The notes under the pieces: model-generated
What the model was told of the DNA's origin: nothing
Seen by the model: only the letters and a program-made list of their open reading frames with translations
Database searches by the model: none
From: an uncultured Methanobrevibacter sp.
GTDB lineage: Archaea; Methanobacteriota; Methanobacteria; Methanobacteriales; Methanobacteriaceae
Assembly: GCF_902774605.1 (NCBI RefSeq)
Contig: NZ_CACYJE010000007.1
Span: 1-64,000, forward strand
Length of the DNA: 64,000 nt
Direction of reading: 5' to 3'
Made by a program: the position numbers and the translations under genes
Shown: positions 7,350 to 15,839 of the stretch, piece by piece
How the letters are laid out: each line of letters starts with the position of its first letter
How positions within the stretch are numbered: the stretch's first letter is position 1

Positions 7350-8192
7350 TCATTTCTTTTTTTTCTTTTTTTTATTCATCTTGCTGCCGGCATTTTCAAC
7401 GTATGCATCACAAACCTCGTTGGCTTCCCCTTCCATAACGATTTTACCATTGTCAATCCAGATACATTTGTCGCATATTTTTCTCATTTGGCTAATCGAA
7501 TGGGAAACAAGCAGCACGGTAACCCCTTCAGCCATTAGTTCATTGATTTTCTGGGAACTCTTTTTCCTAAACTTAATGTCCCCAACAGATAGGATTTCAT
7601 CAACAATGAGAATGTCAGGTTCAATGAGGGTTGCGATGGAAAAACCCAATTTGGCCCTCATACCGGAGGAATAGTTTTTAACTGGATAATTGATGTATTC
7701 TCCCAACTCTGAAAATTCAACAATCTCATCGAATTTCTCATCAAGAAAATCCTTATCCATACTTAAAAAAGCACCATTGAGATAAATGTTATTTTTTCCA
7801 GTGTAATTCTTGTCAAAACCGGCACTCAATTCAAGCAGTGGAGCAACTTTTCCGTTTATCTCAATTTTGCCGGAGGTCGGTTCGTAGATACCGGCCATGA
7901 TCTTTAAAAGAGTACTTTTACCGGCACCGTTAAATCCAAGAATTCCTAACTTGTCGCCCTTATAAACTTTGAAAGAAATGTCGTCAAGAACCCTGACCTT
8001 TTCCTTTTCCTTCTTGTTGCGCTTTAGGGTTCTGATAACATACTCCTTTAAAGTGTCGATTTTATCTTTAGTAATTTTGAATTCCATGGATAAGTGTTCC
8101 ACATTAACTGCAACATTATCATCCAGGACAGGCCTATTATCAAGTGACTTGTTAGATCCTATAATTCCTTTAATTTTATCTATTACGCCCAT
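7350..8192 (-). CDS. Polysaccharide/teichoic-acid-type ABC exporter ATPase (Wzt/TagH-like)
   Basis: ATPase that powers export of a lipid-linked polymer through the partner permease encoded just upstream. In 280 residues: an N-terminal extension typical of this subfamily ([24 protein letters not shown]), Walker [10 protein letters not shown] near residues 83-91, Q-loop region, signature [12 protein letters not shown], Walker B ILIVDEIL and H-loop VSHS. It lacks the long C-terminal sugar-binding domain of Wzt, so it is the short form. The C-terminus is a run of lysines (MNKKKKKKK), encoded by an A-rich tract that is prone to slippage. The start lies 12 bp after the permease gene. Confidence 0.9.
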
Positions 8193-8204
8193 AATAACAC
8201 CTGT

Positions 8205-8969
8205 TTATAATTCTAAAGCTAATTTCTTATCATATATGTTGAACAGTATAACTCCGATTCCCAATGTTGTGAATGCAAATGCGCCTAAATACAATAGCAT
8301 TGAAACGTCTGGAAATGCACCGTATACGCATTGCCTAAAGCAGGTCATTGCACAGTATACCGGGTTTAATGTGAATAGTATCTGCACCTGTGTAGGCACA
8401 ATCTCAATCGGATAAAACATTGCGGAAGCATAAAGCAACACTAAAGTGAATACATTGTAGAGGTACCCAATATCTGAGAAATAAGTGTTGCACACTGCTA
8501 AAATCAATCCGACACCGAATATTAATATTACAAGCAATGCAACTGGGATTATTGTATATATCAATGTGAAATGGAATGGTGATCCGGTAATGAGCATCAC
8601 TCCGAATAATATGATTAATGAAATCAAAAAGTTAACAAATTCATAACATATCGAACTTGTGGCGAACATCCGTTTCGGAACGAAAATCTTCTTTAAAAGA
8701 TTCGCATTCTTCCGAATGGAATTCATTGCACCTTTGGTTCCATGAGTGTAGAAATCAAACATTAGCCTTCCGGCCAGATAGTAAACCGGATAATTCTCAA
8801 TGTTTCTACCGAACAGCATGGAAAAGATTGCGGTGAATACCAGCATGGTTAAAAGGGGATTGAAAAAACTCCATAGGATACCTAAAACTGAATCCTTATA
8901 CTTTGAAGTCAAATTCCTTTTAACCAGTTCGGTTAATAAAAATTTTTTTTCTGAAAACGTATCAAACAT
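8205..8969 (-). CDS. ABC-2 type polymer exporter permease (Wzm/TagG-like)
   Basis: Six-helix membrane protein that forms the channel for the ATPase encoded next to it. Hallmarks of the family are visible: the N-terminal amphipathic segment LTELVKRNLTSKYKDSVLGI with the FFNPLLTMLVF helix after it, an arginine-rich loop after the second helix, and the end VILFNIYDKKLALEL. The 254-residue length is normal. A TTG at 8981 would extend the reading frame by four residues, but the ATG at 8969 is the more likely start, with a weak GGTC element before it. It is the first gene of a three-gene operon (permease, ATPase, anchored protein). Confidence 0.9.
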   Translation of the reverse strand: MFDTFSEKKFLLTELVKRNLTSKYKDSVLGILWSFFNPLLTMLVFTAIFSMLFGRNIENYPVYYLAGRLMFDFYTHGTKGAMNSIRKNANLLKKIFVPKRMFATSSICYEFVNFLISLIILFGVMLITGSPFHFTLIYTIIPVALLVILIFGVGLILAVCNTYFSDIGYLYNVFTLVLLYASAMFYPIEIVPTQVQILFTLNPVYCAMTCFRQCVYGAFPDVSMLLYLGAFAFTTLGIGVILFNIYDKKLALEL

Positions 8970-9034
8970 TGTAATGACCAATATTTTTTCAATTTAACTT
9001 AATTTATATTAATATTTATTAATAAAGTTTTTAC

Positions 9035-11653: not shown

Positions 11654-12421
11654 TTAGTTTTCAAATTCATCAATTAGTTTTTGAGCCTGCTGCCAATCGT
11701 TATGGTCGTCGATTTCAGTCCATTTGAGTCCGTTGGTTAGCACATAGTCGATTGGGGTTTCGGCACTTAATGTCCTGTATGCGAAGTCGTAATAGTTTTG
11801 CTCATCCTCGCTCATCAGGTCTTCAAGTATGCTGTTGAATTTTGAAAGGTCCTTTGAGGCAACCTTTGAAACGCCGATGAATTCTCCGGTGGAACTTGGA
11901 ATGTCGATTCCCTTGCCTATCTCCTTGATGGTTCCGTTGGCGATGCTTTTATCCTCATTGAAGCTTTCGTTTTCAATGATCAGTTTGAATGACTCCTCAT
12001 TCAAGTCCTTGTAGTTGTCAACAATCAGGCTGGTGTTTTCCCTTTCGGCTATTCTTGTTATGATTTCAGGGTCGACAACATTGTCCCCATTGATGAGTAT
12101 GAAATCGTCGCCGCCGTTTTCTTCAATGTGCTTGCTTGCAAGATATGTTGACACTGAAGTGTTGGTCACGTCATATCTCTCGTTTTCAATTATCTCAATG
12201 CTGATGTCATATTTCTCTTCAAGGGTTGGGGTGAATTCAACCACTTTTTCCTTGTTGTAGCCTACGATTACTATGAATTCATTGATGTTCTCGTTCATCA
12301 GGTTCCTAATCATCCTTTCAAGCAGGGTCATGTCGTTGATTTCAAGCAATGGCTTTGGCCTGTCTTTTGTAAGGGGCATTAGTCTAGAACCCATTCCTGC
12401 TGATAAAATTACTCCGATCAT
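11654..12421 (-). CDS. LicC/inositol-phosphate-type nucleotidyltransferase
   Basis: Transfers a nucleotide from an NTP (in this subgroup often CTP) to a phosphorylated sugar, polyol or choline. The 255-residue protein is a single NTP-transferase domain: GVILSAGMGSRLMPLTKDRPKPLL at the N-terminus with the G-x-G-x-R loop and the conserved lysine, INGDNVV for the metal aspartate near residue 110, and a second metal-region signature WTEIDDHNDW near the C-terminus, typical of LicC-like enzymes. It lies 15 bp after gpsA on the same strand, so CDP-glycerol or a related activated polyol is a plausible product. This substrate is inferred. Confidence 0.85.
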   Translation of the reverse strand: MIGVILSAGMGSRLMPLTKDRPKPLLEINDMTLLERMIRNLMNENINEFIVIVGYNKEKVVEFTPTLEEKYDISIEIIENERYDVTNTSVSTYLASKHIEENGGDDFILINGDNVVDPEIITRIAERENTSLIVDNYKDLNEESFKLIIENESFNEDKSIANGTIKEIGKGIDIPSSTGEFIGVSKVASKDLSKFNSILEDLMSEDEQNYYDFAYRTLSAETPIDYVLTNGLKWTEIDDHNDWQQAQKLIDEFEN

Positions 12422-12436
12422 ATTATTTCACCTTCT

Positions 12437-13408
12437 TTATTCAATTGTCTCCCATAATTTATTAAACGCCTTTATAGGGGCTTGCTTGTCGATAATAACG
12501 TTATAAACAAAATTCACAATGTCGCTGTGTATACTGTTGTTGTCGCAGATGTCCTTGACTGCCCTTATTGAATTCTTTCCTTCAAAAACGATTCCGCTCG
12601 CCACTTCGTCAATGATCAGTCTTTGGCCGTACAGTATTCCAAGGGTATGGTTTCTGCTTTCGAATGATGTTGAAGTCAAAATCAGGTCTCCAAAACCGCA
12701 GTACTCATGTGCGGTATCGGAGTTTCCTCCAAAGGACTCGATGATTCTGATTGTGTCGATGAATCCTCGTGTCAGGATGCTGTATCTTGCATTCTCATTG
12801 ATGTTCATTCCTTCACAGATTCCATTGGCAATTGCATTCACGTTTTTCAAAACACCGCAAAGCTCAATTCCCTTGATGTCATCAATGATCTTCACCTTGA
12901 ACTGTTTGGTTGCCAACACTTCCTTAACCTTCCTTGAATTCTCAGGGTTTCTGGATGAGATGTTGGTCACAGTCGGCTGGTTCAGCATTATCTCGGAGGC
13001 GAAATTCGGTCCGGACAATGCGACGTAATTCTCATCGAAATACTCGGATATCAAATCTCCCATGGTTTTCAGTGAAGGATACTCTATTCCTTTTGCGGTA
13101 GTGACAAGTATTGTATCGTTGCTTATCACTTCTTTAAGATTCTTCAAAGTGTCCCTGAATGCGGAAGAAGGTATTGCCAAAAAGATTATTTCGCAATTCT
13201 TCAAGTCATCAACGTCGACTGTAGCCTTTATGTTTTCCTTTAGTTTTTGGCTTGGATAGTACTGGGTATTATACCTCTTATTATTGATATCATCGCATAA
13301 TTCCTGTTTTCTAACATGCAATAATACTTCATTAACGTTTTCACTCATTATCTGTGCGATGGCGGTACCTAGGGAACCTGCACCAATCACACCTACATTT
13401 AAGGTCAT
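12437..13408 (-). CDS. gpsA: Bacterial-type sn-glycerol-3-phosphate dehydrogenase GpsA
   Basis: NAD(P)-dependent enzyme that reduces dihydroxyacetone phosphate to sn-glycerol-3-phosphate. The 323-residue protein has the Rossmann motif VGVIGAGSLGTAIA at residues 5-18, ATTAKGIEYPS-like substrate loop, ALSGPNFASEI, the catalytic lysine region GVLKNVNAIANGICEGMN and CGFGDLILTSTS. Archaeal membrane lipids use the opposite enantiomer made by EgsA, so a GpsA here probably feeds another product; the nucleotidyltransferase gene downstream suggests an activated glycerol phosphate for a surface polymer. A bacterial origin by transfer is likely but not shown. Confidence 0.92.
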   Translation of the reverse strand: MTLNVGVIGAGSLGTAIAQIMSENVNEVLLHVRKQELCDDINNKRYNTQYYPSQKLKENIKATVDVDDLKNCEIIFLAIPSSAFRDTLKNLKEVISNDTILVTTAKGIEYPSLKTMGDLISEYFDENYVALSGPNFASEIMLNQPTVTNISSRNPENSRKVKEVLATKQFKVKIIDDIKGIELCGVLKNVNAIANGICEGMNINENARYSILTRGFIDTIRIIESFGGNSDTAHEYCGFGDLILTSTSFESRNHTLGILYGQRLIIDEVASGIVFEGKNSIRAVKDICDNNSIHSDIVNFVYNVIIDKQAPIKAFNKLWETIE

Positions 13409-13443: not shown

Positions 13444-14961
13444 TTATGCTTTACATTTATTATTAAATTTTCTTTTAATCGTCCTGGAATAATCATTGAG
13501 AATTTTTTCATCAAGATAACTTCCCAATCCAAGTTCAGCCTCGACACTCTTCAAATCATCGAGGCTGAGCGTTTCAAGGCTTTTTTCAATGTCAATCCTC
13601 TTCAACACCCTTTTGGTGTAAGGCCTTTTTGAATCAAGAAACGCAATGCTTTTAAGAAACGACTTGACCAGCGGACTGTTTAAAACAAGCATTGTGACGT
13701 ATGCGGAATCATGATCGTCAAAGGATAGGAAGTAACATGTGTCATCCAGCATGAATGTCTTGTCAGTGTAGACAAGCGAGAAGATGGGGCTCTTGTAAAA
13801 GCCTGAAACCGCCACCTTGTACTTTTTGAATGAATAGTCTCCAATTCCGAAAATGCTGAAGTCCGGCTTGCCATTGTATATTGAGCTTTTGCGCTTGTCA
13901 AAATGCTCCTTGTTATTGTTCAAATACTTCCAGGTTTCAGGAGCTTCATCTTCAATGTAGGAAGTGTCCTGATTTATTCTTTTTTGGGTTATTATGATGT
14001 ACTTTGAGGTTTCAGTGATTATGGGCCTCTTGACCTGGCTGCTTTTAAGCAGGGGGTATACTAAAGAGGTTTCGATGGATAATTTATTCCCATTTTTATT
14101 GAAGAGGCTCCCGTCAACACAATCAAGCTCCATTATGCCTGAGCAGTCATGCTTGACGCCCTGCCTCCACTCGAAAACGCATTCACCGTCAATGTCTGGA
14201 ACATCGTCAATGTTGGAGTAGAAATTGCCGCCCTTAAAGCCGAACCTGTACAGTGTCTTATTCGGGTTTGAAAGGTCTGAAACTCCGCAGGCCATGTCGG
14301 TTAATGTGGATCCTCCAAATTGAAGGACAAGAAGGCACGCTTCAGCATCAATCCTGAAAACTCTTGAAGAGTCAAAGTTCAATTGCCGGATGAAGCTATA
14401 CTTGGTGTTGGTTTCTATCAGATCCTTGAAGATGTTTCTCACAACAATTTTCTTGCACAATAATGCGATTGTTGTGTTGGTTGCTTTGAATTCGGTGATG
14501 ATTTTGCGGATGATTGCCTCTGAAATGTCAAAGTTGCTGTCCCCTGTCATGGCGTCGATGGCCATTTCGTTTCGATAATTGGATTTTTCGGGAAGGTTGG
14601 TTGAGTTCAGTTTTGACAATTCGGTATTGGTTGCCCATGGCGGATTTCCAATTATTAAAATGTTTTTGCTTTTGTCGATATTGTCGAATTTGAATTTGAA
14701 AATGTCCTCGTTAATCAGTGTTAAATTGGGGATTGTTTCATCAACTTCTTTTAATTTGGCCGGGTCAATGTCAATACCATACAATTCTTCATATGGCAGT
14801 GATTCGGATGCGCTTTTTAGAAAGTTTCCAATGCCGCAGGTCGGTTCAATAATGATTTCAGGCATTATTTTTAACTCGTTTTTCAGATATTCGCATATGG
14901 TGTCTGTGAAAAATAATGGAGTCTGGTAATCGCCGAATTCCTTCCTATTGAATTTTTCCAT
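13444..14961 (-). CDS. N6-adenine DNA methyltransferase of a type II R-M system
   Basis: Methylates adenine in its target sequence and so protects host DNA from the linked nuclease. The 505-residue protein has AdoMet motif I IEPTCGIGNFL at residues 38-48, acidic motif II (YGIDIDP), and catalytic motif IV NPPW at 106-109; the order is that of gamma-class or type IIG-like enzymes. The C-terminal half, with AVSGFYKSPIFSLVYTDKTF, should be the target-recognition domain. Its start overlaps the end of the restriction gene, so nuclease and methylase are translationally coupled. gpsA begins 35 bp downstream. The recognition sequence cannot be read from the protein. Confidence 0.9.
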   Translation of the reverse strand: MEKFNRKEFGDYQTPLFFTDTICEYLKNELKIMPEIIIEPTCGIGNFLKSASESLPYEELYGIDIDPAKLKEVDETIPNLTLINEDIFKFKFDNIDKSKNILIIGNPPWATNTELSKLNSTNLPEKSNYRNEMAIDAMTGDSNFDISEAIIRKIITEFKATNTTIALLCKKIVVRNIFKDLIETNTKYSFIRQLNFDSSRVFRIDAEACLLVLQFGGSTLTDMACGVSDLSNPNKTLYRFGFKGGNFYSNIDDVPDIDGECVFEWRQGVKHDCSGIMELDCVDGSLFNKNGNKLSIETSLVYPLLKSSQVKRPIITETSKYIIITQKRINQDTSYIEDEAPETWKYLNNNKEHFDKRKSSIYNGKPDFSIFGIGDYSFKKYKVAVSGFYKSPIFSLVYTDKTFMLDDTCYFLSFDDHDSAYVTMLVLNSPLVKSFLKSIAFLDSKRPYTKRVLKRIDIEKSLETLSLDDLKSVEAELGLGSYLDEKILNDYSRTIKRKFNNKCKA

Positions 14962-15601
14962 GCTTGCACTTCCCGTTAAGTTGATCTTTAAAATTTATCG
15001 CATTACTATATTTCAATCTCCATTGCAATGCGTTTGAGATTGTCAGATAACCTTGTTTTGGAGGATTGGACATTATCTTTTTAGCAAGGTTTTCTAAAAT
15101 TTCTTTGTCGCCAGGAATATTTTTCTCATTTAAAAGATTAATAATTTCCTTTTCACTGGCTCCCTTGCAGAGTAACCTTCTTAATCTTTTTGTTAAGTTA
15201 TAGTCTGCAGTTTTTTCCGATGTGATAAAGATGCAATGCTTGAATTTGAGGAAACATTGATTGTTGATTTCTCTTTTTTTGTAGACGAAAAGAAGGATGT
15301 TGTAACCTAACCCATAGATTTTTTGTTCTATATTCTTGAAGGGGGATGAACTTTGGGGTTTTTTGGTTGAAGTTACTTTAATGTCGGTGTTGATGTGTGG
15401 GTCGGGAAAATCTATTCCTTTGGCACTTGAACCAATATTGAATTCATATTTCCTTTTAAGATAATTTTTAAATTCATGTTCGATATAAGTTCCAATGCGT
15501 TTTCCGTCACTGACTCCGAGTAATTCCGGATGGGATTTTTGACTTTCAAGCTTGGTGAAGTTTTCTGCTTCTCTGATCAATATTTCTAATGATAATTTCA
15601 T
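14945..15601 (-). CDS. Type II restriction endonuclease, PD-(D/E)xK type
   Basis: A 218-residue protein that I take as the partner nuclease of the overlapping methyltransferase. A PD-(D/E)xK site is readable: GIDFPD at residues 62-67 and TDIKVTS at 72-78, giving P66-D67 and D73-x-K75. The N-terminal helix LEILIREAENFTKLESQKSH and the C-terminal region QGYLTISNALQWRL probably contribute to dimerisation and DNA binding. The ATG at 15601 is preferred; a GTG at 15610 would add three residues. The 17-bp overlap with the methylase places the nuclease first, an order that normally needs a control on nuclease level. Confidence 0.8.
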   Translation of the reverse strand: MKLSLEILIREAENFTKLESQKSHPELLGVSDGKRIGTYIEHEFKNYLKRKYEFNIGSSAKGIDFPDPHINTDIKVTSTKKPQSSSPFKNIEQKIYGLGYNILLFVYKKREINNQCFLKFKHCIFITSEKTADYNLTKRLRRLLCKGASEKEIINLLNEKNIPGDKEILENLAKKIMSNPPKQGYLTISNALQWRLKYSNAINFKDQLNGKCKHGKIQ

Positions 15602-15839
15602 TTTAACCACATTTTTGATAATTTAAAAGTTTCATCAGCTATCTTTCAATGATTATTCGTTTCATGCTGTGGCTGTGGTTGGATTTTAATGAAATTTTTA
15701 ATATTTAAAAATTCAATTCAAATATTTATTTGGCATATTATTTAAACTTATTTCCAATAAAAAAGAAGTATATAAAGATATTAATTAATTAAGTAATTAT
15801 ACTATTGTTATATGCATAAATAAATATTTTAAATTAATA

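Follow-up and report, generated by a model that had tools for sequence, protein, structure and literature searches.

With two exceptions, glycerol-phosphate cytidylyltransferases belong to the TagD-type family (Litschko et al., 2021, PMC8262930). Enzymes of the LicC family (COG1213) are reported to act on phosphocholine, phosphosugars, phosphoglutamine and phosphoglycerate, and one of them, CpgD, makes CDP-glycerate (PMC12275187), so that the substrate of a LicC-family enzyme cannot be deduced from family membership alone. In archaea, the M. ruminantium M1 genome paper reports teichoic-acid gene homologues and cites a high wall phosphate content for M. ruminantium, comparable to that of teichoic-acid walls (Leahy et al., 2010, PMC2812497). 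In a later bioinformatic paper, two genes of M1 that carry the description thiamine monophosphate synthase are assigned as 'tagD' (PMC7772410). GpsA is already known in Methanobacteria (PMC5059525). Archaeal GpsA has been treated as horizontally acquired and discussed within lipid evolution (Yokobori et al., 2016, PMC5059525; Coleman et al., 2019, PMC6431249), and the deep nodes of the published GpsA trees are unresolved (PMC5059525, PMC6431249).

We analyzed a 64,000-nucleotide stretch of DNA (the window) from an uncultured Methanobrevibacter sp., a gut methanogen. The initial annotation had placed a bacterial-type GpsA beside a LicC-like transferase, 15 bp apart, in this archaeon, and the coordinates, strand and families of the two genes are all confirmed (Table 1). 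We consider it highly probable that the two genes supply the precursor for a teichoic-acid-like pathway in this archaeon, which would run from GpsA through CDP-glycerol synthesis by the LicC-family enzyme to a polymer made by TagF.

Table 1. Positions of the genes and intervals discussed. Plain positions refer to the window; the prefix L marks other loci, and G marks genomes.
Feature	Position	Strand	Description
gpsA	12437..13408	minus	323 aa, ATG; putative NAD(P)-dependent sn-glycerol-3-phosphate dehydrogenase (DHAP to sn-glycerol-3-phosphate)
LicC-family (PF00483) nucleotidyltransferase	11654..12421	minus	255 aa, ATG; proposed CTP:sn-glycerol-3-phosphate cytidylyltransferase replacing TagD, substrate inferred
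gpsA/transferase spacer	12422..12436	minus	15 bp, with ribosome-site-like AAGGTGA
ABC-2 permease (Wzm/TagG-like)	8205..8981	minus	Candidate polymer exporter; PF01061 58 bits; best NCBIfam match galactan Wzm/RfbD, 60 bits
ABC ATPase (Wzt/TagH-like)	7350..8192	minus	Candidate polymer exporter; PF00005
Type II restriction-modification pair	13444-15610		MTase 387 bits, REase 226 bits (PADLOC)
TarI + TarJ-like	L150:8475-9538 (own genome, G000 contig 23)		Ribitol-type teichoic acid donor genes in an archaeon
LCP (LytR-CpsA-Psr, PF03816) match	L154:2-1261 (G000 contig 70)		46-residue match at contig end, then zinc-ribbon region
TagD-like gene in TagF cluster	L133:8786-9220 (G050)		144 aa
TagD-like gene in TagF cluster	L134:8155-8589 (G056)		144 aa
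PF04464 gene	L038:6727-7815		362 aa
MTase-like fragment	L044 217-816		Resembles MTase C-terminus
PEP-mutase fusion	L053:4824-6152		Fused to cytidylyltransferase-like domain
PntC-like fusion	L125:4581-6404		Transferase-aminotransferase (Methanobrevibacter)
Streptomyces plasmid genes	L149:6001-8559		Transferase relative and two following genes

The gpsA and transferase genes

The gpsA gene is the upstream member of the pair, and the transferase start follows on the same strand. The shortness of the spacer and the AAGGTGA within it point to co-transcription and coupled expression of the two genes. Promoter and terminator scans gave signals at about the level expected from shuffled sequence, and we give them no weight. 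The closest orthologues, at 85-87% identity, come from Methanobrevibacter MAGs, and the genome encodes EgsA; the host is accordingly an archaeon near Methanobrevibacter. In the window, a type II restriction-modification pair lies between gpsA and a radical-SAM gene. In four relatives (L056, L059, L120, L137), the radical-SAM gene directly precedes gpsA and the restriction-modification pair is absent from that site, so the restriction-modification genes look like a strain-specific insertion. A fragment resembling the C-terminus of their methyltransferase lies beside TagF genes in a different locus (L044).

GpsA matches PF01210 (139 bits) and PF07479 (124 bits) across the whole protein and passes the cut-off of NCBIfam NF000942 (277 bits against 257). 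Seven residues, K106, K188, N189, D241, T245, R252 and N253, are invariant in 21 archaeal copies of the module. They align with K120, K204, N205, D260, T264, R269 and N270 of human GPD1, which are its catalytic and phosphate-binding positions. The family and the active-site residues of GpsA are thus established, and the protein is predicted to reduce DHAP.

The transferase matches PF00483 with 67 bits, and its best sequence match in the PDB is the CTP:phosphocholine cytidylyltransferase LicC (1jyk, 7e-14). An AlphaFold model (pLDDT 95.6) has PntC and LicC as its nearest structures, and the nearest solved relatives overall are LicC, PntC and inositol-phosphate cytidylyltransferases. The protein carries the G-x-G-x-R...P-K signature, metal-binding Asp residues, an invariant N-G-D motif and an E-I-D motif. 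No NCBIfam model reaches its own cut-off on the transferase and no equivalog claims it, and its closest relatives by both sequence and fold are CTP enzymes. TagD/TarD proteins (TIGR01518) are defined by a CTP_transf_like fold with HxGH and RTxGIST motifs; the window transferase matches no CTP_transf_like model. From its genetic linkage, the missing TagD and the fold, we infer that this enzyme is a CTP:glycerol-3-phosphate cytidylyltransferase.

Linkage of the pair across genomes

Loci were gathered by similarity to the transferase alone, from a one-genome-per-species scan (51 loci) and from whole-genome searches, giving 64 loci after removal of duplicates. GpsA is present in 53 of the 64, and in 47 it lies on the same strand within 150 bp of the transferase. 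Among the 11 loci that lack it are a remote relative (L126) and six in which no more than 500 bp separate the transferase from a contig end. In 46/64 loci, a TagF-like gene of PF04464 lies within 3 kb of the transferase, and 59/64 have either TagF within 10 kb or the exporter within 5 kb.

The trio of GpsA, transferase and TagF recurs across Methanobrevibacter and genera related to it, and it is also present in further families of the same order and in Methanoculleus. In Methanoculleus the order is TagF-transferase-GpsA, and the transferase is 37-41% identical to that of the window. The arrangement in G063 and G147, which represent two more families of the window's order, is transferase-GpsA-flippase-like gene-TagF, at 33-37% identity to the window proteins. 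Because the gene order is rearranged and the cluster is nonetheless kept, the genes appear to form a working unit rather than to reflect inherited proximity. The window's own subclade has TagF outside the cluster, elsewhere in the genome.

Within the genus, the transferase and the module type of GpsA occur together in 22 of 60 genomes and separately in none (raw counts, uncorrected for ancestry, with GpsA types assigned by position). The adjacency of the two genes is therefore not chance. A 23rd genome has no more than part of a transferase gene, truncated where the contig ends. TagF proteins scoring above about 338 bits are found in 18/23 genomes with the transferase and in 2/37 without it, again uncorrected for ancestry. 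PF04464 genes as a whole occur in 59 of the 60 genomes, and since 36 of these lack the pair, it is not required by every PF04464 enzyme. The evolutionary distances of GpsA and the transferase correlate over 21 loci (r = 0.95), which shared species history alone could also explain.

A second type of GpsA, about 50% identical, is present in other Methanobrevibacter genomes. In the loci examined (L050, L051, L053, L055), it adjoins or lies near genes for a TarI-like cytidylyltransferase and LicD, and such loci perhaps represent an independent route to CDP-glycerol.

From bacteria, the genome scan yielded only distant relatives of the transferase, without GpsA or TagF (L099-L105), and a relative in Prevotella adjoins LicD. 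A scan of plasmids added two cases. In the bacterium Solidesulfovibrio, a plasmid-borne transferase relative overlaps with a PF04464 gene and has no GpsA close by, as would be expected if bacterial GpsA is a housekeeping enzyme. On a Streptomyces plasmid (L149), a transferase relative is followed by an iron-alcohol-dehydrogenase gene and then by a CDP-alcohol phosphatidyltransferase gene, with an ABC transporter further on. The best model for the dehydrogenase is glycerol-1-phosphate dehydrogenase, at 230 bits and below the cut-off of 413, and this locus is possibly a mirror-image system for the other enantiomer. The Solidesulfovibrio, Streptomyces and second-GpsA loci are consistent with the idea that such cytidylyltransferases activate small polyol phosphates supplied by a neighbouring dehydrogenase.

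Homologues of polymer genes in the same genome and a candidate exporter

The genome from which the window comes is a draft of 108 contigs that is 96% complete, and absences from it carry some risk. The initial annotation had proposed looking there for TagB/TagF-like glycerophosphotransferases, and the genome encodes four PF04464 proteins, one of which is a full-length TagF homologue. This protein of 725 aa (PF04464, 388 bits) is colinear over its full length with Staphylococcus epidermidis TagF (3l7i, ~720 aa; 387 bits) and scores 96 bits against solved TarL. It keeps the catalytic histidine of the TWHGTPLK motif in alignment with 3l7i; the 3l7j chain reads TWNGTPLK. In relatives that have TagF beside the pair, the score of this neighbour is 342 bits with TarF and 156 with TarL. 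Another PF04464 type, of about 360 aa, is found in almost every congeneric genome examined, whether or not it carries the pair, and scores slightly higher with TarL (171) than with TarF (145). A protein of this size and score is encoded at L038 (362 aa), beside sugar-nucleotide and glycosyltransferase-like genes.

The best match to TagD (TIGR01518) in the same genome scores 25.8 bits, below the 165.4 that the model requires. This weak match, in an open reading frame beginning MKIMATGTFDILHPGHG, was the only candidate for a TagD hidden elsewhere in the genome and was rejected. The TagD cut-off is reached in none of the 67 genomes examined. TagD-like genes of about 99 bits (cut-off 165) do occur in TagF clusters of genomes G050 and G056, both of which also carry the GpsA-transferase pair in another part of the genome. 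TIGR01518 matches of 110-119 bits in other genomes fall in open reading frames of 435-455 aa, which we read as phosphonate genes on the basis of one frame of this size and kind, a PEP-mutase fusion. Transferase matches of 600-635 aa were likewise read as phosphonate genes, the one scanned having a C-terminal aminotransferase as in PntC. The fusions at L053 and L125 are likely phosphonate (aminoethylphosphonate) genes.

Two further genes bear on the kind of polymer that might be made. TarI is encoded with 358 bits against a cut-off of 166 (291 bits to 4jis), and it is followed by a TarJ-like gene that is cut by the contig end and whose N-terminus scores 131 bits to 6xh9, a solved ribulose-5-phosphate reductase. 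With both genes in the genome, CDP-ribitol is probably also made, and some of the PF04464 enzymes may use it. A linkage-unit transferase of the TagA/WecG type (PF03808) has no match in this 96%-complete draft, and in its absence the linkage unit would differ from that of bacterial wall teichoic acid. LCP enzymes ligate wall polymers in bacteria; the genome has a single LCP match over the cut-off (L154).

The initial annotation had also suggested that an exporter at 7-9 kb of the window could move the polymer. The ATPase resembles both galactan Wzt/RfbE (217 bits) and TagH (209 bits), in each case below the model's cut-off. The exporter lies 2.7 kb from the pair in the window, and a spacing of 2.6-2.7 kb between exporter and transferase is conserved in 13 loci. 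These features make the suggestion plausible, but housekeeping genes lie between, and the exporter is a candidate. Downstream of the pair come gatB (by sequence), a CBS-domain gene and a phosphoribosyl-ATP pyrophosphohydrolase-like gene before the exporter is reached, an order that is kept in close relatives. Export of the polymer by the transporter at 7.4-9.0 kb is the weakest link in the proposed pathway.

A proposed pathway to a glycerol-phosphate polymer

In the pathway that we propose, GpsA would reduce DHAP to sn-glycerol-3-phosphate, the enantiomer that the archaeon does not use in its own lipids. The LicC-family enzyme would then combine sn-glycerol-3-phosphate with CTP to give CDP-glycerol, from which Gram-positive bacteria build teichoic acids, doing the job of TagD with an unrelated fold. 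TagF/TarF-like transferases of PF04464, whose genes adjoin the pair in most relatives and lie apart from it in this genome, would transfer glycerol phosphate to a lipid-linked glycan. Export of the polymer to the pseudomurein wall would fall to a transporter of the Wzm/Wzt (TagGH-like) kind, perhaps the one at 7.4-9.0 kb. The proposal in the initial annotation of an activated glycerol-3-phosphate for a teichoic-acid-like polymer is thus the favored reading, given the TagF homologue in the genome and the TagF genes beside the pair in most related loci. With less confidence, we lean towards a broader interpretation: that LicC-fold glycerol-3-phosphate cytidylyltransferases are a new family for this activity and define a teichoic-acid pathway of archaea that Methanobacteriales and Methanoculleus have both kept. 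Its product would be an sn-glycerol-3-phosphate polymer on cells whose lipids contain only sn-glycerol-1-phosphate, and the pathway would include a dedicated GpsA since these archaea would have no housekeeping source of sn-glycerol-3-phosphate.

A related reading is that the pair makes only a glycerol-phosphate linkage or primer, with a main chain of poly(ribitol phosphate) or glycosyl-ribitol phosphate built from the CDP-ribitol of TarI and TarJ, as in ribitol-type Gram-positives. TarI and the TarJ N-terminus in this genome speak for it, as does the higher score of the genus-wide 360-aa PF04464 protein with TarL. However, the 725-aa homologue matches TagF along its full length and far better than it matches TarL, and the PF04464 neighbour of the pair in relatives is a TarF-like enzyme. 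We regard a ribitol main chain as possible and rather unlikely; it stands as a variant of the proposed pathway, and CDP-glycerol synthesis holds either way.

Two other readings would separate the pair from CDP-glycerol altogether. The transferase might activate another compound, such as phosphocholine, a sugar phosphate, phosphoglycerate or an aminoalkyl phosphonate, with the product of GpsA used separately. The identity of its nearest solved relatives, the synthesis of CDP-glycerate by CpgD within the LicC family (PMC12275187) and the LicD neighbour in Prevotella all leave room for this. We nevertheless judge it improbable, because GpsA is fixed beside the transferase in distant archaea with TagF beside both, the module type of GpsA is never found without the transferase in the 60 congeneric genomes, and the phosphonate cytidylyltransferase of these genomes is a separate, fused gene. 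Alternatively, GpsA might feed bacterial-type or mixed membrane lipids or a redox shuttle, its neighbourhood being incidental; it is a bacterial lipid enzyme, and its archaeal homologues have been discussed under the lipid divide (PMC5059525, PMC6431249). The 96%-complete genome has no PlsY, however, and it encodes EgsA (487 bits) for the sn-glycerol-1-phosphate of its lipids, so GpsA is not needed for lipids and we rejected a housekeeping or lipid role. GpsA tracks the cytidylyltransferase and TagF instead, and the second GpsA type, too, has a TarI-type cytidylyltransferase adjoining it or close by, along with LicD. This last reading seems to us very improbable indeed.

If the proposed pathway is correct, GpsA would have a non-lipid reason to exist in these archaea, with consequences for lipid-divide arguments that draw on GpsA distribution. 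It would also name a candidate gene family for archaeal glycerol-phosphate cytidylyltransferase activity. High wall phosphate, noted long ago in M. ruminantium, could now be tested against specific genes, and its genus has a prominent place among the methane producers of the rumen.

The suggestion of an undescribed pathway holds in part. For M. ruminantium, earlier work had reported teichoic-acid homologues and a high wall phosphate content and had suggested teichoic-acid-like polymers, and GpsA was known in Methanobacteria; what appears to be new is the LicC-family replacement for TagD together with its dedicated GpsA. The literature searched, which mostly lay outside subscription papers, describes neither a LicC-family glycerol-3-phosphate cytidylyltransferase nor a GpsA-transferase-TagF cluster, and we claim no priority. 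A genome that matches M. ruminantium M1 in size (G083, L109; 2,937,203 bases) has gpsA clustered with the transferase and TagF, and the passages found in the main text of the M1 genome paper name no cytidylyltransferase or CDP-glycerol route (PMC2812497). An archaeal CTP:glycerol-phosphate cytidylyltransferase activity is also known from Archaeoglobus fulgidus (Rodrigues et al., 2017, as relayed in PMC8262930). By that secondhand account, it prefers sn-glycerol-1-phosphate and its gene is described as unidentified.

With LicC/COG1213 enzymes (LicC, PntC, Cj1416, CpgD), the window transferase shares fold and motifs. It differs from them in its partners, GpsA and TagF, hence its likely substrate is glycerol-3-phosphate; the literature examined contains no COG1213 enzyme with that substrate. 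The bacterial wall teichoic acid route of B. subtilis and S. aureus (TagD/TarD, TagB/TagF) is similar in the proposed formation of CDP-glycerol from sn-glycerol-3-phosphate and its proposed polymerization by PF04464 enzymes, in having a candidate ABC-2 exporter and in the full-length TagF homologue. Compared to it, the archaeal system would have a LicC-family enzyme in place of TagD, a dedicated GpsA, no TagA that we could find in this genome, a pseudomurein wall and archaeal lipids. If our proposal is true, glycerol teichoic acid chemistry would occur in two domains of life that differ in the enzyme used for activation.
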